A stretch of 64,000 bases of DNA. Origin: Medicago truncatula (Eukaryota; Streptophyta; Magnoliopsida; Fabales; Fabaceae). The stretch covers positions 2,492,501-2,556,500 of the forward strand of contig NC_053042.1 in assembly GCF_003473485.1 (NCBI RefSeq), read 5' to 3'. Position 1 is the stretch's first letter. The number at the start of each line of letters is the position of its first letter. The notes under the pieces are model-generated. The model was not told where the DNA came from and made no database searches. It saw only the letters and a list, made by a program, of their open reading frames with translations. Below, one piece after another: positions 4,392-54,073 of this stretch. A program made the position numbers and the translations under genes.

Positions 4392-12248
<7,857 letters not shown>

Positions 12249-14900: not shown

Positions 14901-15839
14901 CTAATGCAAACATTTCTTCATGAACTGACTCATTTGGTTTTGAAGCAACCTAGTTGCATCAGATTCAGGATAAAAAACGTGAAACACATGTTTCTCTTCT
15001 TCAGCCTCAACAACATTCACCTCTTTCACCCCTTTCTTCTTCACAAACTCAGCATACATAACACCTCTTTCCTTCAAAAAATCCTTTCCAGCAACATAAA
15101 CCTCAACAGCAGGAAACTTCAACCAAACACTCTCACTCACATCATCTTTCTCAAAATTACAACCAAAAAAATCGCGGTCCGAATCTTCAGGCAAACTCAA
15201 TCTCCAAAACATATCATTCATTTTCACATCCTCAACACCTCCTTCTTCCTCCATCTCTTTCTCAGTCCTTTTCTCACTCCCAAAATAAGGATGTATAAGC
15301 ATAACCCCTTTAATCTTCACAGGACAAAACCCATCATTTTGAATAGCTTTAACAGCAACATAATGAGAAATGTTACCACCAGCACTATCACCAGAGAGAA
15401 AAACATTTGATAAATCAGCATGTCGTAGAAACGGTTCGGTTTTCACATTTTCACCAAGCCATTCAAGTGATGAGTAACAATCTTCATAAGCTATTGGAAG
15501 ACGATTCTCCGGTGCTAACCGGTAATCAACAGAGAGAATAATGGACTGTGACGCGACGGAGAAATCTCCGAGGAAGTTGTTGTAACCAAGCCATGTTGTG
15601 GAACCAATGCAAAAGCCACCACCATGGAAATAAACTAAGAGAGGTAGGAGTTTTTTGGTTGGATTGTTTGGAATGAAGATTCTTCCTGTGATGGGTTTTG
15701 TAGGGTCAATGATTATGTCTTTGGATTTGTATTTGTTGGATGAATCTAATGAGGGTGGTGCTATTTCTGGGTTGAAACGTTTCACCGTTCCATCTGAGAA
15801 AACTTGAAGAAATTCTGGTGCTTCTGCAATTAAGGACAT
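14901..15839 (-). CDS. plant carboxylesterase (CXE / alpha-beta hydrolase)
   Basis: Intact single-exon gene, 312 aa, of the plant CXE family (the hormone-sensitive-lipase-like group that also includes GID1 and 2-hydroxyisoflavanone dehydratase). The oxyanion-hole motif HGGGF lies at residues 72-76, the nucleophile elbow GDSAGG at 150-155 (Ser152), the acid is probably Asp253 in AGKD, and the His is probably His284 in HVFH. A DYRLAPE motif is at 105-111. The triad is complete, so an active esterase is expected rather than a GID1-type receptor, in which the His is lost. No signal peptide or membrane segment, so probably cytosolic. The start is the first ATG after a TATA-like TATAAAAT at 15924-15917. 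The substrate cannot be read from the sequence. The acidic run EKEMEEEGG at 194-201 is a variable cap-region insert. Confidence 0.92.
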   Translation of the reverse strand: MSLIAEAPEFLQVFSDGTVKRFNPEIAPPSLDSSNKYKSKDIIIDPTKPITGRIFIPNNPTKKLLPLLVYFHGGGFCIGSTTWLGYNNFLGDFSVASQSIILSVDYRLAPENRLPIAYEDCYSSLEWLGENVKTEPFLRHADLSNVFLSGDSAGGNISHYVAVKAIQNDGFCPVKIKGVMLIHPYFGSEKRTEKEMEEEGGVEDVKMNDMFWRLSLPEDSDRDFFGCNFEKDDVSESVWLKFPAVEVYVAGKDFLKERGVMYAEFVKKKGVKEVNVVEAEEEKHVFHVFYPESDATRLLQNQMSQFMKKCLH

Positions 15840-15916
15840 TTTATTTTTGTTGCTTGCACAAAACTGAAGTGGTACTAGGTGGTGAGTTTCTGTATCTGAA
15901 TTATGACTTAGAGGTT

Positions 15917-16115: not shown

Positions 16116-16188
16116 CGCGCCAGGTAGGGGTCGAACCTACGACTTTCTGCTTAGGAAACAGACGCTCTATCCACTGAGCTACAGGCGC
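16116..16188 (-). tRNA. tRNA-Arg (anticodon CCT)
   Basis: A 73-nt cloverleaf on the minus strand starting GCGCCTGTAGCTCAGTGGAT (A box) with TC-arm GGTTCGACCC (B box). The anticodon loop TTCCTAA sits on a 5-bp stem, giving anticodon CCT for AGG codons. The acceptor stem pairs except for one T-T mismatch at position 6-67. No intron. A CAACAA motif precedes it immediately and a run of five T follows within about 15 nt, as expected for a Pol III gene. Confidence 0.95.
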
Positions 16189-22786: not shown

Positions 22787-23162
22787 TAATTAATATATTA
22801 TAATATTGTTTTTTACATCTTGATTAATTTTATGAAAAAAATCTTGATAATTGTGGTTTGATTCTCTGATTTTTTTGTTAAATTAAAAATATTTAAAATT
22901 TCGATAATTGCTTATGTAATGTCACATCCAAACACTTCAATTATGTAAGTACTTTTTGGTGTACATATCCAAACATAAATAGCTTATCAAGTATAAGAAC
23001 TTAGACCATGTGCAATGGGGGTGTTGAACCCCATATTCAACAAGCAAACCATTGGAGAGGGGGGTGTTGAAAGTGAGCTGGAGGAAAGAGATGATGAATA
23101 CATTCAATAGGTTGAATCCTGACGCCGGAAGCCACGTGGCGCGCTCGGATTGGGCTTTTTTT

Positions 23163-23183
23163 GGCGCGTGCGTTACACGCGCC
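23163..23183. repeat. GC-rich palindrome in Harbinger 5' region
   Basis: A perfect 8-bp inverted repeat, GGCGCGTG-CGTTA-CACGCGCC, in an otherwise AT-rich region about 160 bp inside the left end. It is a candidate hairpin or protein-binding site. Confidence 0.7.
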
Positions 23184-23368
23184 GACAAGGCGCGTCTGTG
23201 ACAGAGGGACGCGGAGAGAGAAACTGTTTTGGATAGTTGCTGCCACGCGTCGCTTTCTGGTTGGCTGGCTTGGATTTTTATCTTCTTAATACTTTGGACT
23301 CAATTATTTCATTGCAAATAATTTTTTTAATTTTTTTTTTTCACCAAAATTCGTGATTTTTTTTTCTC

Positions 23369-23376
23369 TATAAATA
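23369..23376 (+). promoter_or_regulatory. TATA box of Harbinger ORF1
   Basis: TATAAATA 114 bases before the ORF1 ATG at 23483, in a CTCTATAAATAGAG palindrome. Confidence 0.6.
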
Positions 23377-23482
23377 GAGACTTGGATCATTTGATTTGGA
23401 CACAGAAAAAAAAACCATAATTTTCACTCTCTTAATCTTATTATTAGCATTTCTTTTGAAGTTTTAGTCTTTAATTAGTGAA

Positions 23483-24670
23483 ATGGATCCCACTAACAAT
23501 CAATCCAACACCCAAAATTCTTCTGATTACCCTTTTAGCTACCAAAATCAATTTCCCAACTCACATCCTCAAAACCCAAATCAATTTCCCAACCAATATC
23601 CTCAAAACCCAAATCAATTCCTCAACCAACATCCTCAAAACCCAAATCAATTCCCCAACCAAAATCCTCAAAACATGTCTAATTTTGGTTTTGCCTCAAA
23701 TTTCAATCACCCATCCTTTGTTCCAAACAACTTTAATCCATATTTTAGATCTATGATGGGATATTCATCTCAAACACCCCCATTTAATGGTTATATGCCA
23801 ATGGTGAATGAAAATTTTCAGAGTGTTGGTGAATATCCTGAATTTTCATCACAAATAAATCGTGGTGGAATGACACGAGATAATGAAGTTGGTCCAACTC
23901 CAGAGGATACAACTCCAAAGAGCAAGAGAAACCAACAACCATCATGGAACACTGAACAAAATTTGGTGTTAATTAGTGGGTGGATAAAATATGGAACATG
24001 CAGTGTTGTCGGAAGAAACCAGACAAGTGAATCATATTGGGGTAAAATTGCTGAGTATTGTAACGAGCATTGCTCATTCGATTCTCCGCGCGATGTAGTT
24101 GCATGCCGAAACCGTTTTAATTATATGAACAAATTAATAAATAAATGGGTTGGTGCTTATGATAGCGCTAAGCGTATGCAAGGAAGCGGTTGGTCGGAAG
24201 ATGATGTTTTCAAAAAAGCTCAAGAATTATATGGATGTGGGAAGAATGTTCAATTTACTTTAATGGAAGAATGGCGCGCTCTCCGAGATCAACCACGGTA
24301 TGGTAGTCAAGTGGGAGGAAATGTTGACTCAGGAAGTAGTGGATCTAAGAGATCTTACGAGGACTCTGTAGGATCTAGTGCTCGTCCAATGGGTAGGGAT
24401 GCAGCTAAAAAAAAAGGTAAGAAGAAAAGCAAGGGCGAGACATTGGAGAAGGTGGAAAAGGAATGGGTTCAATTCAAAGAATTAAAAGAGCAAGAGATTG
24501 AACAATTGAAAGAGTTAACTTTGGTGAAACAACAGAAAAACAAGTTGCTGCAAGAAAAGACTCAAGCTAAAAAAATGAAAATGTATCTAAAGTTAAGGGA
24601 CGAAGAGCATCTCGATGACCGGAAGAATGAGCTGTTGGGGAAGTTGGAGCGTGAGTTGTTTGAAAATTAA
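23483..24670 (+). CDS. Harbinger ORF1, Myb/SANT-like DNA-binding protein
   Basis: Intact 395-aa frame. In PIF/Harbinger elements this protein acts with the transposase in the nucleus, helping its import and its binding to the element ends. Residues 25-63 are four imperfect 11-residue repeats of the type NPNQFPNQYPQ. Residues about 150-270 form a trihelix/Myb-SANT-like domain (PSWNTEQNLVLISGWIKYG, then YWGKIAEYCNEH, CRNRFNYMNK and FTLMEEWRALRDQPRY). A basic stretch AAKKKGKKKSKGE near 310 is a probable nuclear signal, followed by a charged, Leu/Gln/Lys-rich coiled coil to the end. The start is the first ATG after a TATA box. It resembles host glutathione S-transferase/trihelix-like proteins annotated from such elements, but its position beside the transposase settles its origin. 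Confidence 0.9.
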   Translation: MDPTNNQSNTQNSSDYPFSYQNQFPNSHPQNPNQFPNQYPQNPNQFLNQHPQNPNQFPNQNPQNMSNFGFASNFNHPSFVPNNFNPYFRSMMGYSSQTPPFNGYMPMVNENFQSVGEYPEFSSQINRGGMTRDNEVGPTPEDTTPKSKRNQQPSWNTEQNLVLISGWIKYGTCSVVGRNQTSESYWGKIAEYCNEHCSFDSPRDVVACRNRFNYMNKLINKWVGAYDSAKRMQGSGWSEDDVFKKAQELYGCGKNVQFTLMEEWRALRDQPRYGSQVGGNVDSGSSGSKRSYEDSVGSSARPMGRDAAKKKGKKKSKGETLEKVEKEWVQFKELKEQEIEQLKELTLVKQQKNKLLQEKTQAKKMKMYLKLRDEEHLDDRKNELLGKLERELFEN

Positions 24671-24692
24671 TTTTAATCAAATATTTGTTTGT

Positions 24693-25115
24693 ATTCAGTC
24701 AACATTATCAGTGTTGTCTAGTCCCAACTGTTTGCTTTAATATTTGTCAGTGTTGTCTAGTCCGTAGTGTTTGCTTTAATAATTATCAGAGTGTTGTCTA
24801 CTCGTCACTGTTTGCTTTAATAATTATCAGAGTGTTGTCTAGTCCGTAGTGTTTGCTTTAATAATTATCAGAGTGTTGTCTACTCGTCACTGTTTGCTTT
24901 AATAATTATCAGAGTGTTGTCTAGTCCGTAGTGTTTGCTTTAATAATTATCAGAGTGTTGTCTACTCGTCACTGTTTGCTTTAATAATTATCAGAGTGTT
25001 GTCTAGTCCGTAGTGTTTGCTTTAATAATTATCAGAGTGTTGTCTACTCGTCACTGTTTCCTTTAATAATTATCAGAGTGTTGTCTAGTCGTCACTGTTT
25101 GCTTTAATAATTATC
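24693..25115 (+). repeat. 41-bp minisatellite, ~10 copies, alternating variants
   Basis: About ten tandem copies of a 41-bp unit (GTGTTGTCTA at roughly 24711, 24748, 24790, 24831, 24872, 24913, 24954 and onward), between the stop of ORF1 and the promoter of ORF2. From the second copy the units strictly alternate between a TAGTCCGTAGTG type and a TACTCGTCACTG type, so the later array is an 82-bp higher-order dimer. Confidence 0.9.
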
Positions 25116-25180
25116 AGTGTTTGCTTTAATACAATACAATAACTTATTTCGAATCCGTCAGTGTCCACCACACAATGTAC

Positions 25181-25190
25181 TTATATATAG
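25181..25190 (+). promoter_or_regulatory. TATA box of transposase ORF
   Basis: TTATATATAG, 132 bases before the transposase ATG and just after the minisatellite. It suggests the transposase is transcribed separately from ORF1. Confidence 0.55.
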
Positions 25191-25203
25191 GGACTCATGT
25201 CTA

Positions 25204-25310
25204 CTTCCAATATCACAAATCTCATTCCTATCTATTTCCAATATCACAAATCTCATTCCTATCTATTTCCAATATCACAAATCTCATTCCTATCTATTTC
25301 CAATATCACC
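25204..25310 (+). repeat. 31-bp tandem repeat in transposase leader
   Basis: Three full and one partial copy of a 31-bp unit (TTCCAATATCACAAATCTCA...) fill the stretch between the TATA box and the ATG. The repeat has no stop in the transposase frame, so an earlier in-frame ATG at 25175 would add 49 repetitive residues. Confidence 0.85.
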
Positions 25311-25321
25311 AAAGACTATCA

Positions 25322-26602
25322 ATGGATCCTTTTGATATCGAAGCCTACAAACAAAAACGTGATATTGAAGACACTTATATCGTCAACCGATTTATTCAGC
25401 GTCGAAAAGAATTAGAGGAAGGTAGTGGATCTCGTAGTAGAAAATATTTAAATAGAGATCATGCAGCGGCAAACCAAAGACTCATTGACGACTACTTTGC
25501 CAATGAGCCTACATATGACGATGCAATGTTTCGTCGTCGGTACCGGATGCAAAAGCATGTTTTCCTTCGAATCGTTGGAGACCTTTCAATTACTGATAAC
25601 TACTTCACCCAGCGAGTTGATGCCGCCAACAAAGAAGGTATATCACCGTTAGCAAAATGTACCACAGCAATGCGAATGTTAGCATATGGCGTGGCAGCAG
25701 ATGCGGTCGATGAATACATCAAAATAGGAGGTACTACAGCATTGGAGTGCTTACGTAGATTCTGTAAAGGAATCATACGATTGTATGAGGAAGTGTACCT
25801 GAGAGCACCAAACCAAGATGACCTTCAAAGAATACTACATGTTAGTGAAATGCGGGGGTTCCCAGGGATGATCGGGAGTATTGACTGCATGCACTGGGAG
25901 TGGAAAAATTGTCCTAAAGCATGGGAAGGTCAATTCACCAGGGGGGATAAGGGAACCACCACAGTTATTCTTGAAGCAGTTGCATCTCATGATCTATGGA
26001 TCTGGCATGCCTTTTTTGGATGTCCAGGAACGTTGAACGATATCAATGTTCTAGACCGGTCACCGGTGTTTGATGATGTGGAACAGGGAAAGGCTCCACG
26101 GGTGAATTTCTTTGTGAATCAACGTCCCTATAATATGGCATACTATCTAGCTGATGGTATCTACCCTTCTTATCCAACTTTCGTCAAATCAATTAGACTT
26201 CCTCAAAGTGAACCTGATAAGTTATTCGCAAAACATCAGGAGAGCTGTCGGAAGGACATCGAACGTGCTTTTGGAGTGCTTCAAGCTCGATTTAAAATCA
26301 TCCGTGAACCAGCTCGCTTGTGGGACATAGCCGATTTGGGTATCATCATGAGGTCATGCATCATATTGCATAATATGATTGTTGAGGATGAACGAGATAC
26401 ATATGCTCAACGTTGGACCGATTTTGAGCAATCTGAGGGAAGTGGATCTAGTACAGCACAACCATACTCGACCGAGGTGTTACCCACTTTTGCAAATCAT
26501 GTGCGTGCTAGATCCGAGTTGCGTGATCCAAATGTTCATCACGAATTGCAAGCAGATCTAGTGAAGCACATATGGACAAAGTTTGGAATGTTTCACGATT
26601 GA
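25322..26602 (+). CDS. PIF/Harbinger transposase (DDE_Tnp_4, ALP1/HARBI1-like)
   Basis: Intact, intronless frame, 426 aa from the chosen start. It catalyses cut-and-paste transposition at TTA/TAA targets. The N-terminal part (about 40-150) is helical and DNA-binding in related proteins. The catalytic core carries GSIDCMHWEWK with Asp188, GTLNDINVLDRS with Asp240, and KDIERAFGVLQARFKII with Glu314, the DDE triad in the order and motif context of the DDE_Tnp_4 family. The start at 25322 is preferred over the in-frame ATG at 25175 because residues encoded upstream are only the 31-bp repeat, and because MDPFDIEAY begins a normal family N terminus. No frameshift or stop. Domesticated ALP1 is the alternative for such sequences, but intact TIRs and TSDs show an element. 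Confidence 0.93.
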   Translation: MDPFDIEAYKQKRDIEDTYIVNRFIQRRKELEEGSGSRSRKYLNRDHAAANQRLIDDYFANEPTYDDAMFRRRYRMQKHVFLRIVGDLSITDNYFTQRVDAANKEGISPLAKCTTAMRMLAYGVAADAVDEYIKIGGTTALECLRRFCKGIIRLYEEVYLRAPNQDDLQRILHVSEMRGFPGMIGSIDCMHWEWKNCPKAWEGQFTRGDKGTTTVILEAVASHDLWIWHAFFGCPGTLNDINVLDRSPVFDDVEQGKAPRVNFFVNQRPYNMAYYLADGIYPSYPTFVKSIRLPQSEPDKLFAKHQESCRKDIERAFGVLQARFKIIREPARLWDIADLGIIMRSCIILHNMIVEDERDTYAQRWTDFEQSEGSGSSTAQPYSTEVLPTFANHVRARSELRDPNVHHELQADLVKHIWTKFGMFHD

Positions 26603-27029
26603 AGATGATTTGTATCGAACTAAGTAAATTACTTGTGTGTTGTGTGCTTGTTTGTTGTCTTGCATTTTAAGCTATTTGTGTGACCCGTACTTAGTTTGTT
26701 GTATTGCATTTTATTTATGTTAAGAAAATAAAAATAAATTATTTAAATAAATTTTGTTTTTACAAAAAAAAAAAAATTGTTAAGTGTTTCTTCATTTTAA
26801 TTTAATTATAATCGATAATTGTAATTTTATATAATTATAAAAACAAAAATATAAAATTAAATAAGAATAAGAAATAAAAGGTGGTGGGGTAGGGTGTTGA
26901 ATAAAAAACCATTGGAGAGGTAAAAATTGAAAGGGTGTTGAATTAAGAGAGAGAAAATGATGTGGAGTGTTGGGAATTGAAAAAGTGGGTGTTGAAGGTT
27001 GTTGAATTTGTTTTACCATTGTAAATGGT
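26603..27029 (+). other. 3' region of Harbinger element
   Basis: AT-rich 3' UTR of the transposase gene followed by the right subterminal region, which repeats GGGTGTTGAA and ACCATTGGAGAGG found at the left end. Confidence 0.6.
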
Positions 27030-27104
27030 CTTATGATGTAAGCTCTAATGCTATAAGCCTTAATGCTATAAGCATCTATATAAGTTGTTTATCCAAACAG
27101 GGCC

Positions 27105-28743: not shown

Positions 28744-29430
28744 TCAATTAAGTAGCTCTTCAATCATCTGCATGGTAACAATATCCTCTTCATGTTCTAT
28801 CCCATTTTTCTCAGCACAATCACCAACAATTGTACTATTATTAGGTGCTGATTTTTCTGATGATGACACATAATTTGATTCATGACTATCTTCATGTTTC
28901 TTTCCAAGCTCCACCCTTAAGATCCAATTAGAGTCAGAATGTGATCCTGCTCCTTTTTGCCAGACTCCTATGTGAGAATTATCAGCATCAAGCCTCAAAC
29001 AAGTGAGTGATTGAGATTGTTTTTGACAACATTTTGTAAGCTTTTGTTTAAGGAGATGAGAAAGAGCATTTGAAGTGTGGAAAGAGTTATTATTATCATC
29101 ACAATTTGGTGTTAGGGAATTGGCATCTTCAGTTTGATCCTTTGGTATAGGGAAATTGGTTTTGGCATTTTTTCCATTCATCAATATGGCCGCTTGATCA
29201 TATGCTCTGGCTGCAGCCTCTGCTGTCTCAAATGTACCTAGCCATACCCTTCTCTTCCTGTGTAAATTTTGCAGCCATATGATATGGTGTGAAATTATGA
29301 AAATAACAACATTATAATAATGAAACTATAGTGTTGGAGAAGTAGATTACAGTAAAGGGTGACGAATTTCTGAGACCCATGAGCCCCACTGTCGTTGTCT
29401 AACTCCTCTGAACTTGTTACGTTGTACCAT
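28744..29430 (-). CDS. WIN1: AP2/ERF transcription factor, SHINE/WIN1 clade
   Basis: Complete two-exon gene, 197 aa. Exons: 29430-29351 and 29257-28744, with a GT-AG intron inside the AP2 domain after HPLL, the position shared by SHINE genes. SHN/WIN1 factors activate wax and cutin biosynthesis genes in the epidermis. The AP2 domain covers residues about 6-65 ([20 protein letters not shown], then [20 protein letters not shown]). The clade-specific middle motif follows ([19 protein letters not shown], then [12 protein letters not shown] and WILRVELG), and the protein ends with the clade's QMIEELLN. Length agrees with Arabidopsis SHN1 (199 aa). TATATATATA lies about 65 bases upstream of the ATG. 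Which SHN paralogue it is cannot be decided here. Confidence 0.95.
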
Positions 29431-41440: not shown

Positions 41441-42759
41441 GCTTTGTTTGAGTGTTTAGAGGAGCGGGGAGGAGAAGAGAAGTCTTTGAATGGTGGGAAA
41501 TATATGAAAGAAATCTATCATATTTTTTGGAACAATATGATAGATTAATATAAGATTAATGTAAGATTAATATATTTTTAATTTTAAGAATATTATAACA
41601 ACATAGATTTAATAGATAAATCTATCATATTTTTTTGAAAGATTAATATTTTAGAGAATGATAAATTAATTTATGATTAATATATTTGTAATTTTAAGAA
41701 TATTATAATTGTTGGAACACTATGGGTGTTAATATGTGAATTAAAAAAATTCTCATGTCAACTATCCCTTTGAGTGCTCATTTATGAGGCAATATCATGT
41801 CATTGATTTTGTGGTGGCCAACTAATCCTAACCATTGAATTTGTAACTTATCTTTGGCTCCTCACCTATAAATAGAGCTCTCATTCCTCACTTCTGATCA
41901 CACCAAAAGTTCTTTTGAGTTGTCAAAAAACTTTTCTCTCTTCTCCCTCATTTAGCTTGTGTTGACGAGTTATTCTTTTCATCTCCCTCTCTTTTTGTCC
42001 CGTAGGATTTAAAGAATGTTTTTAAGACCATAGTCCCTTCGAGAAATAATGTCCCTTCGGAATTAAGAATGGTCTTAAGAGCATAGTCCCTTCGGTAAAT
42101 TTTGTCCCTTCGAAAATAAGAGTATTCTTAAGATCATAATCCATTTCGAGATAAAGTGTCCCTTCGGAAAATAAGATTGATCTTAAGAATATAACCCCTA
42201 TTTATGTTTTATGCCCTTGGAGAAGTTAGAGGTTAGAGCGGTGGAAACACCATATTAGAGTGGTCTTAAAACTATATAAGAATGGTCTTAATATCATGAT
42301 AGAGTGGTATCAATACCATATTAGAATGGTCTTAGCACCATATTTGAATGTGTATTTCTAGAACAGACCCTATAGTGCAATAGGATTGATACGATTGTAG
42401 CTGAGTTGTTTTATCCTGGGGGCGCCGTGGTTGATAGTTTGCTTGCACAATTTTGGGCAGTGCCACGAAACGTCTTAAAGAGAGCGACCTAGTTTGCGAC
42501 TCAACCTAGTAATCTCTTCGGTTGCAGATAAATATTTTTAACTAATTTTGATTATTGTTCCAACAATAACAACATAAATTTAATATTTTGAAGAACAATG
42601 CAATTCTTGAGTTCCACCCAATTGAGGGGAATTTTGTATTAGGAAGAAAAATCAACCCCCCAAAGCTCTCCTCTTCTCATATCATCTATTTCTTCCATTC
42701 GATCCTTCCTTGTTTTCAAAGACCTCTATCTCTTCCCTTCTAAACTCGCAAACAAAGCC
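41441..42759. mobile_element. Tourist-like MITE carrying a solo LTR
   Basis: Ends GGCTTTGTTTGAGTGTTTAG and (inverted right end) GGCTTTGTTTGCGAGTTTAG, flanked by TTA at 41438-41440 and 42760-42762. Its interior has two direct copies of a segment around AGAATATTATAACAACAT. The second is broken by the LTR at 41710-42565, so the original length was about 460 bp. Confidence 0.75.
41710..42565 (+). mobile_element. solo LTR
   Basis: An 856-bp sequence bounded by the inverted pair TGTTGGAACA (41710-41719) and TGTTCCAACA (42556-42565), with flanks ATAAT and ATAAC as a near-perfect 5-bp TSD. It has a promoter-like CTATAAATAGAGCTC at about 41868 and internal direct repeats built on GTCCCTTCGG (42020-42180). 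No coding sequence or second LTR nearby, so the internal part was lost, probably by LTR-LTR recombination. Confidence 0.75.
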
Positions 42760-42762
42760 TTA

Positions 42763-51556: not shown

Positions 51557-54073
51557 ATGTCTCAAGTCTTCGGCTTTTCTGGTACTTTCAATGATCCTTT
51601 ACGTTTTTTATTTGATTCATAGATTTTTAGGTTGTGGGTGTGTTTTAAATTTTGCAACCAAAAATAGTAGCATGTGGTTCTAGATATTTGATTAGAGATG
51701 ATGATTTTGATGTTCATAGGAAAGTTTATTTTTTATGATGATTTTGATCTATTTTATATGAAATAATTATGGGTTTGATCTTAATTCTCTTATTATGTTA
51801 TGTGGTATGGATAATCATGTGGTTAAGAGGTAAAATTTTAGCTGGGTAATAGTATTTGTGTTATAGATCTATAAGATTAGTATTTGGGAGGGTTTGTATG
51901 ACATAGTTTTGATTGATTAGAAGATCTGATTAGAGATATGAATAGATTATAATTTTAATGAGATAGTAAGATACTTTAGCATAAGTTGTTTTAAGAATTT
52001 TACTTTTCTGATATCTTATGATTCTGCTTTGAGAAGTTTATTCTGCATAGGTTTGATTTAAGCAGTTTTGTTGAGTTTGATAGTTATAACTTATATAATT
52101 GACATAGATCATTATATTTATATGCTTAATTTGTTCTTTCCTGATGATCTTGCCTTATGTTTTCAGGTGATAACTTTTGCCATGGTGGGTTATACACAAA
52201 CCCCAAGGAAGCAAATTTCTTCCTGTCTCTTGGCCCTCAAGTTGATGTCTACTATCCACCTCAGAAGAGATCACGTGTCAGTGTTCCATTTGTTTTCGAT
52301 GGAGAATGGTTTGAGCAGAAGCAGAAAACATCTATTGAATCTTTGCCAGATGAGTGCCTCTTTGAGATCTTTAGAAGGTTGCCTGTTGGTGAAGAAAGGA
52401 GTGCATCCGCTTGTGTTTCCAAACGCTGGCTTATGCTTCTAAGCAATATTTGCAAGAGTGAAATCTGTAGCAACAAAAGTACCTCCTCAAATGACGAGAA
52501 TAAAATGGAATGTGACAGCGAAGAGTTTGGAGGTGAGGGATACCTTTCCCGCAGCTTGGAAGGAAAGAAGGCAACCGATGTCAGACTTGCTGCTATTGCA
52601 GTTGGAACTGCATCACGAGGAGGATTAGGGAAGCTTTCAATCCGTGGAAGCAACTCGGAACGCGGCGTGACAACTCTAGGTCTCAAAGCAGTTGCTAGTG
52701 GATGTCCTTCTCTAAAGTCTTTTTCTTTATGGAATGTTTCTTCTGTTGGTGATGAAGGCCTTATTGAGATTGCTAATGGATGTCAAAAACTAGAGAAGCT
52801 TGACCTTTGCAAATGCCCTGCAATTTCCGACAAGGCTTTAATCACAGTTGCAAAGAAGTGTCCGAATCTGACCGAGTTATCATTAGAGTCTTGTCCTAGC
52901 ATTCGCAATGAAGGTCTACAAGCCATTGGAAAGTTCTGCCCAAATCTTAAGGCTATATCTATCAAGGACTGTGCCGGTGTTGGGGATCAAGGAATCGCTG
53001 GCCTGTTTTCTTCGACTTCTTTGGTTCTGACAAAGGTGAAGCTTCAGGCACTGGCTGTTTCTGATCTCTCTCTAGCTGTTATTGGACACTATGGCAAAAC
53101 AGTTACCGATCTTGTCCTTAATTTCCTCCCAAATGTTAGTGAGAGAGGCTTCTGGGTTATGGGAAATGCTAATGGATTGCATAAACTGAAGTCACTCACA
53201 ATTGCATCATGCAGAGGAGTAACCGATGTTGGGATTGAAGCTGTTGGAAAGGGCTGTCCTAATTTGAAAAGTGTACATCTTCATAAGTGTGCATTTCTCT
53301 CAGACAACGGATTGATTTCATTCACCAAGGCTGCTATATCACTTGAAAGCCTACAATTGGAAGAGTGCCACAGAATTACCCAATTTGGGTTTTTCGGCGT
53401 CCTTTTTAACTGTGGTGCAAAATTGAAGGCTCTTTCTATGATAAGCTGCTTTGGGATCAAGGATCTGGACTTGGAATTGTCACCTGTATCTCCTTGTGAA
53501 TCACTTCGTTCATTATCAATTTGTAATTGCCCTGGATTTGGCAACGCCACCCTTTCTGTACTCGGAAAGTTGTGCCCTCAGCTTCAACAAGTTGAATTGA
53601 CTGGACTTAAGGGAGTGACAGATGCTGGGTTGCTTCCACTGCTCGAGAGCTCTGAGGCTGGTCTTGTCAAAGTCAATCTTAGCGGTTGCGTAAATCTTAC
53701 AGACAAAGTTGTTTCATCCCTGGTCAATCTGCATGGTTGGACTCTTGAGATTCTGAACCTCGAAGGTTGTATAAACATCAGCAATGCTAGCTTGGCAGCA
53801 ATTGCTGAACATTGCCAATTGCTTTGTGATCTTGATTTTTCCATGTGCACAATCTCTGATTCTGGGATAACAGCCCTGGCACATGCGAAACAGATCAATC
53901 TACAGATTCTTTCTTTGTCAGGTTGCACTTTGGTTACAGACAGGAGTTTGCCCGCTTTGAGAAAATTGGGCCACACCCTTTTGGGACTAAATATCCAGCA
54001 TTGCAATTCAATCAGCAGCAGCGCGGTTGAGATGCTTGTTGAACATCTTTGGAGGTGTGACATCCTTTCCTGA
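51557..54073 (+). CDS. EBF1: EIN3-binding F-box protein (EBF1/EBF2 type)
   Basis: Complete two-exon gene, 643 aa. Exon 1 (51557-51581) encodes only MSQVFGFS; exon 2 (52167-54073) holds the rest, and the tiny first exon is typical of this family. The protein is the substrate receptor of an SCF E3 ligase that marks EIN3/EIL1 for degradation in the nucleus, restraining ethylene responses. The N-terminal motif YTNPKEANFFLSLGPQVDVY is family-specific. The F-box is at about residues 64-105 (SIESLPDECLFEIFRRLP). From about 150 to the end come Cys-containing leucine-rich repeats (for example CPNLTELSLESC, CPNLKSVHLHKC). It ends CDILS, as in Arabidopsis EBF1. No break or missing motif. EBF1 and EBF2 cannot be told apart from this alone. 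Confidence 0.96.

Follow-up and report, generated by a model that had tools for sequence, protein, structure and literature searches.

A structurally complete, probably autonomous Pong-type PIF/Harbinger transposon in Medicago truncatula

We asked whether a transposon in a 64,000-nucleotide stretch of the Medicago truncatula genome (contig NC_053042.1, positions 2,492,501–2,556,500 of the forward strand; hereafter the window, in whose coordinates features are given) has everything it would need to move by itself, or whether it only looks intact. A preliminary description, made from the letters of the window, had presented it as an apparently intact, potentially autonomous PIF/Harbinger transposon at 23004–27029, unusual in its completeness and perhaps recent or still mobile. 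Our analysis suggests, with a probability of about 0.9, that it is a two-gene DNA transposon, structurally complete, of the Pong type within the PIF/Harbinger superfamily, probably autonomous and recently active. That it is still mobile appears plausible.

Ends, genes and insertion site

Direct reading of the window letters places the 4.0-kb element at 23004–27030; its start is therefore as first described, and its true end lies one base further. With a slash marking the element boundary, the two ends read AACTTA/GACCATGTGCAATGG and CCATTGTAAATGGTC/TTATG. The terminal inverted repeats (TIRs) are 15 bp long and agree at 13 of 15 positions. Both the left TIR, GACCATGTGCAATGG (23004–23018, plus strand), and the right TIR, GACCATTTACAATGG (27016–27030, minus strand), were recovered by direct reading, by a pattern scan and by a survey of the ends of other copies. 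A pattern describing the two TIRs with two degenerate positions matched exactly only at the two element ends in the 64 kb; with three mismatches allowed, the six matches observed against 5.6 expected correspond to chance. The exact TTA target-site duplications (TSDs) were likewise confirmed, at 23001–23003 (direct reading, and the one TTA present in each of four empty sites aligned) and at 27031–27033 (direct reading and the end survey). Both the TIR length and the duplication fit the PIF/Harbinger pattern of TIRs of about 14–25 bp and a 3-bp TTA/TAA target.

The element carries two open reading frames (ORFs), both on the plus strand. ORF1 (23483–24670) encodes 395 amino acids (aa) and, by its reading frame and by comparison across 40 copies retrieved from the genome (the window copy counted), is intact; its product is presumed to be a DNA-binding partner protein. 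ORF2 (25322–26602) encodes the transposase, with 426 aa and no intron, as indicated by its reading frame, Pfam matches and the alignment of copies. The separate TATA-box motifs noticed earlier are indeed there, before ORF1 at 23368–23379 and before the transposase gene at 25180–25192 (both plus strand), each in 36 of the 40 copies. A longer transposase frame opens at an ATG at 25175 (475 aa), but since this codon lies upstream of the TATA motif, the ATG at 25322 is the likely start. The transposase matches Plant_tran (PF04827, E 8e-115) and DDE_Tnp_4 (PF13359, E 8.5e-11). Alignment of 26 open transposases located the full catalytic Asp-Asp-Glu (DDE) triad at D188 (25883–25885), D240 (26039–26041) and E314 (26261–26263), all on the plus strand and unchanged in every sequence, so that both matches and triad are those of an IS5-like Harbinger-type DDE/D transposase. 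A comparison of ORF2 with solved structures returned nothing at E ≤ 10, and of 61 pattern matches in IMG/VR none was confirmed as a relative. No coding defect was seen at the DNA level: the window transposase is 100% identical, with equal score, to the transposases of two other loci, and its ORF1 has no amino-acid difference from that of copy L023. A second, related family was also noted in this genome, with two distant open transposase frames at C7:28569737-28570960 and C4:31710971-31712146 that are 55% identical to the window transposase.

An empty TTA site was found for the window copy. When the element was removed and its flanks were joined with one TTA, the 200-base query matched every one of the 40 loci scored, out of 425 first-look candidates, at 94–97% identity, from query base 1 to base 171–182, spanning the junction at base 100. 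In alignment, the four of these loci that were fetched keep a single TTA and show AAGAGCTTATGATG in the place occupied in the window by AAGAACTTA, the element and TTATGATG. The element was inserted by transposition, as an empty site with one copy of the duplication demonstrates. What it interrupts is an older, high-copy Tourist-like miniature inverted-repeat transposable element (MITE), delimited by flank matches and an end scan as 22904–27104, where 22904 is the start of our query and not a boundary of the MITE. The scan placed the right end of this MITE, GGCCCTGTTTGGATAA, at 27089–27104 (minus strand) and found no left end; the right end has the PIF-type motif G(N)5GTT and is adjoined by TTA in the window. 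The Pong-type element thus sits within an older Tourist-like MITE. The same 16-base end occurs again at 11447–11462 (plus strand).

Related copies and competing explanations

The genome searched was a 430-Mb assembly in 42 contigs. With the element as DNA query, at least 67 matches were obtained (39 scored of 516 first-look candidates). Among the matches listed in a protein search (100 rows, with 98 scored of 317 candidates), 45 frames cover at least 422 of the 426 transposase residues, and by hand count 28 of these are stop-free, one of them (L028) having lost its ATG. For the 40 fetched copies, ORF1 was called open when a start matching MDP[TN][NS] led into more than 340 aa, a rule that excludes the 362-aa frame of L047 with its different start. 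ORF2 was called open when more than 400 aa followed an MDPFD-like start, or when the frame had an ATG and its alignment began no later than residue 3 and reached at least residue 410. Both ORFs are open in 19 copies, ORF2 alone in seven and ORF1 alone in three. Both ends could be resolved with identical TSDs in 28 copies (TTA in 12, TAA in 14, TGA and TCA in one each) and with mismatched TSDs in two; the other ten lack a resolved end on one or both sides. Fifteen of the 40 copies combine two open ORFs, both TIRs and identical TSDs, among them L023, whose transposase is ended by a stop at codon 418. The window copy is therefore complete, as first described, but its completeness is no rarity: intactness is common within its own family.

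Near-identical copies at different sites support the earlier suggestion of recent insertion or mobility. Divergence was compared outside the tandem array for 26 of the 40 copies, nine with an unresolved end being left out and five dropped because an array boundary could not be located. The nearest copy to the window element, L020, differs at 5 of 3,525 bases (0.14%), and L017, L036, L037, L038 and L042 lie 0.03–0.06% from their nearest neighbours. Plants accumulate substitutions at about 7e-9 per site per year, at which rate 0.14% corresponds to about 0.1 million years. When the flanks, up to 800 bases past each resolved end, were compared all against all, 12 rows resulted, one of 234 bases at 67% identity and the rest of at most 93 bases; with so little likeness the copies represent separate insertions. 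The median ratio of nonsynonymous to synonymous substitution rates (dN/dS) is 0.21 in ORF2 and 0.45 in ORF1 (88 of 171 pairs among 19 copies, dS > 0.05), which points to past selection on the coding frames.

Two of the full-length copies, L024 (TAA/TTA) and L028 (TTA/TAA), have mismatched duplications, perhaps through recombination between copies or imprecise repair. They are of interest because, according to the available text of PMC4561436, mismatched TSDs reduced mPing transposition in yeast. The non-canonical duplications TGA and TCA belong to L018 and L048 and do match. L022 could be a recombinant, with a 5′ half closest to L013, L021 and L024 and a 3′ half that leans slightly towards the window group (0.7% versus 1.2–1.4%), a difference that is suggestive only.

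Could the near-identical copies be segmental duplications or assembly artefacts instead of transpositions? L036, L037, L038 and L042, almost identical across about 3.4 kb, invite this thought, but each has its own matching TSD and their flanks are unlike (resolved ends, up to 800 bases), and for the window copy an empty site is known. Segmental duplication is very unlikely for the 28 copies with matching TSDs, whose flanks are unlike over the same span at resolved ends, and as an account of the family we give this explanation next to no credence. It is also highly improbable, if slightly less so, that one or both ORFs have been domesticated as host genes and are intact for that reason. As a rule, a domesticated gene exists in one copy, does not move and is common to several species. 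Here neither TIRs nor TSDs are damaged, the mobile unit encloses both genes and there are many dispersed, near-identical copies, although purifying selection on ORF2 would agree with domestication and the available text of PMC9710019 describes domesticated Harbinger proteins elsewhere.

Far more serious is the idea that the copy, intact as it is, is now silenced, a young fossil of an ended burst that has stayed open for lack of time. The 0.14% separating it from its nearest copy would have left time enough for silencing without decay, and several close relatives already have frameshifts or stops. The five copies at 0.03–0.06% from their nearest neighbours and the 28 stop-free frames among the 45 listed suggest, on the other side, that movement continued until very recently. 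We consider the chances of present silence to be about even.

Several observations count against the reading of a probably autonomous, recently active element. The empty site comes from a single copy, that of the window, and L020, the nearest sister of this copy, has a broken ORF1. Values of dN/dS between subfamilies reflect past selection, not present activity, and the genes of a recently amplified family appear intact even when silent. ORF1 itself is open, as first described, but its Myb/SANT-like label is fair but weak: the stretch concerned (23939–24145, plus strand), searched as an isolated domain, matches Myb_DNA-bind_4 in Pfam at E 1.2e-4 with 22.9 bits, under the curated cut-off of 27, while the whole of ORF1 gave nothing at E ≤ 10. 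Single-sequence AlphaFold models were poor, with predicted local distance difference test (pLDDT) scores of 34.9 and 51.2.

Helices appear in the Myb-like region of ORF1 in a low-confidence AlphaFold model, and ORF1 of three relatives gave only weak NAM-associated matches (E 0.24–0.4). An ORF1 profile and the isolated domain found no match among solved structures better than E 0.9, and an NCBIfam search gave zero matches.

Classification and comparison with known systems

PIF/Harbinger holds as the superfamily name, but a PIF-type label was rejected: the TIRs, GACCATGTG on the left and GACCATTTA on the right, are without the PIF motif G(N)5GTT. An intronless transposase downstream of ORF1 is typical of Pong, and in the window a single 426-codon frame follows ORF1. 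Because the TIRs are without the PIF motif and ORF1 precedes an intronless transposase, Pong type appears to be the better label.

The rice Pong/Ping system with mPing is the closest parallel in organization, with separate genes for ORF1, whose Myb-like label is weak in the window copy, and a DDE transposase, 15-bp TIRs, a TTA/TAA target and short, internally deleted partners. By analogy with that system (available text of PMC2836001, PMC9921582 and PMC4561436), ORF1 would bind the element ends and bring in the ORF2 transposase, the pair would make staggered cuts at a 3-bp TTA/TAA target, and the element would be excised, mostly precisely, and inserted elsewhere. Copy number would grow by repair from a homologous template, copies being described as possibly building up through homology-dependent repair in the accessible part of PMC10288884; interrupted repair would yield internally deleted short derivatives. 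The available text of PMC9921582 further calls G1, C4 and A11 highly conserved in the TIRs of rice Tourist-like MITEs. The window TIRs also have these bases; across the family, position 4 is T in place of C in 5 of 32 resolved left TIRs. Besides the host lineage, what may differ from rice Pong/Ping is a set of variable-number tandem repeats (VNTRs), of 41 bp between the genes, 33 bp within the ORF1 coding region and 31 bp in the transposase leader, known here from Medicago sequence alone. Unlike mPing, which is 430 bp long, the Medicago short derivatives measure about 0.8 kb, and an identical junction occurs in only 20 loci.

MtMaster and the other MtPH families, as presented in the available text of PMC2213677, share the superfamily, a TTA/TAA TSD, deletion derivatives and, apparently, the host with the window element; they too contain VNTRs (60 bp in MtPH-A6-4), and empty sites were found likewise. 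They differ in that they were chosen by the TIR motif G(N)5GTT, absent from the window element, and in that their core transposases have one or two introns. The same text describes its TIR motif as characteristic of most PIF-like, not Pong-like, elements, and because such a motif leaves out Pong-type elements, the window family would lie outside the scope of that survey. It also mentions PIF- and Pong-like elements of Lotus japonicus that amplified recently, the latter resembling the window family, by description only, in their recent amplification in a legume. Among the papers listed in literature searches, no title or abstract opening describes a Pong-type Medicago family; the window family may well be catalogued in Repbase. 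The published MtPH-A6-4 TIR with a TWA target occurs 279 times in the genome (control, 0). One exact TIR of this type, with a TAA target, lies in the window at 42743–42762 (minus strand; C1:2535243-2535262) and marks the end of a PIF-type element.

The present findings leave knowledge of how the superfamily works unchanged. Their use would lie in offering a ready system in a model legume, with 15 fetched copies that have complete ends and both frames open, an empty site and short partners, for studying how such elements stay mobile and by what route their short derivatives form.

Repeat arrays, short derivatives and other features

Three tandem arrays, all read on the plus strand, vary among the copies. 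A 33-bp in-frame repeat encodes the N/Q/P-rich N-terminus of ORF1 (23541–23674), and differences in its copy number give ORF1 lengths of 384, 395 or 406 aa in otherwise alike copies. Between the genes, a repeat scan and copy comparison defined a 41-bp array with an 82-bp higher-order unit (24710–25117); the 40 copies hold 0–14 unit cores, and the higher-order combinations differ by subfamily in the six copies printed. A 31-bp repeat of variable copy number lies in the transposase leader (25200–25309).

The left subterminal region (23004–23303, plus strand), which diverges strongly among subfamilies, has four GTTGAA/TTCAAC motifs, and the right one (26731–27030, plus strand) has four GTTGAA motifs, every one direct; the two ORFs combined contain one, and the 41-bp array none. 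GTGTTG occurs in every 41-bp unit of the window, a count inflated by the descent of the units from each other, as well as twice in the left 300 bases, four times in the right 300 bases, three times in ORF1 and never in ORF2. That the array is a copy of the end motif was rejected, given the absence of GTTGAA from it and the three GTGTTG in ORF1. That the array binds ORF1 is a guess. The TATA motif of ORF1 is preceded, at a distance of about 185 bases, by a GC-rich dyad, GGCGCGTG-N5-CACGCGCC (23163–23183). The dyad is present in 33 of 40 copies when a changed outer base is allowed, its arms conserved and its spacer variable. It is less exceptional than it looks: when 21-base windows of the 5′ region were ranked by conservation (12 of the 40 copies and three derivatives aligned), 11 of the top 12 start at 283–298, and the dyad is overlapped by just one of them, which starts at 172 and takes twelfth place.

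Six candidate derivative loci were fetched (L049–L052, L057 and L058). In L049 and L051, roughly 476 bases from the start of the element and 343 from its end remain; both TIRs are present, and a TTA lies on each side. The deletion junctions differ in L050 (454/3653) and L052 (522/3697), the latter without a clear left duplication; the end pattern found no ends in L057 and resolved L058 in part. A 40-base junction sequence common to L049 and L051 matched 20 genomic places, 17 of them exactly, with no matches for the control. The parent sequences flanking it have TTAGT in common, which is compatible with formation by microhomology repair. The 5′ parts of L049 and L051 are unlike despite the common junction, being 86% and 78% identical to the window copy. 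Full copies behave likewise: those of other subfamilies that were scanned differ from the window copy by 27–41% in the first 300 bases, whereas the 3′ half differs by 0.7–8.8% in the copies of other subfamilies compared. The 5′ ends may have been exchanged, or they may evolve faster.

A broader proposal, which we regard as doubtful and offer tentatively, would combine these features. The family, with its many autonomous-looking copies, would be mobile today in a legume and feed a growing set of short derivatives, making it a dicot counterpart of Ping/mPing. Its 41-bp array, with a GTGTTG core per unit that recurs in both subterminal regions, would be a platform of ORF1-binding sites tuning transposase expression, and its fast-diverging 5′ end would be swapped between subfamilies.

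Other features of the window were identified by eye. Frames at 1106–1842 resemble a Helitron-type helicase fragment. Likely host genes comprise a carboxylesterase-like gene at 14901–15914 (minus strand), an AP2/ERF-like exon at 28744–29325 (minus strand) and an EBF-type F-box/leucine-rich repeat (LRR) gene at 52148–54073 (plus strand). In addition, ARAGORN predicts a tRNA-Arg (CCT) at 16116–16188 (minus strand).

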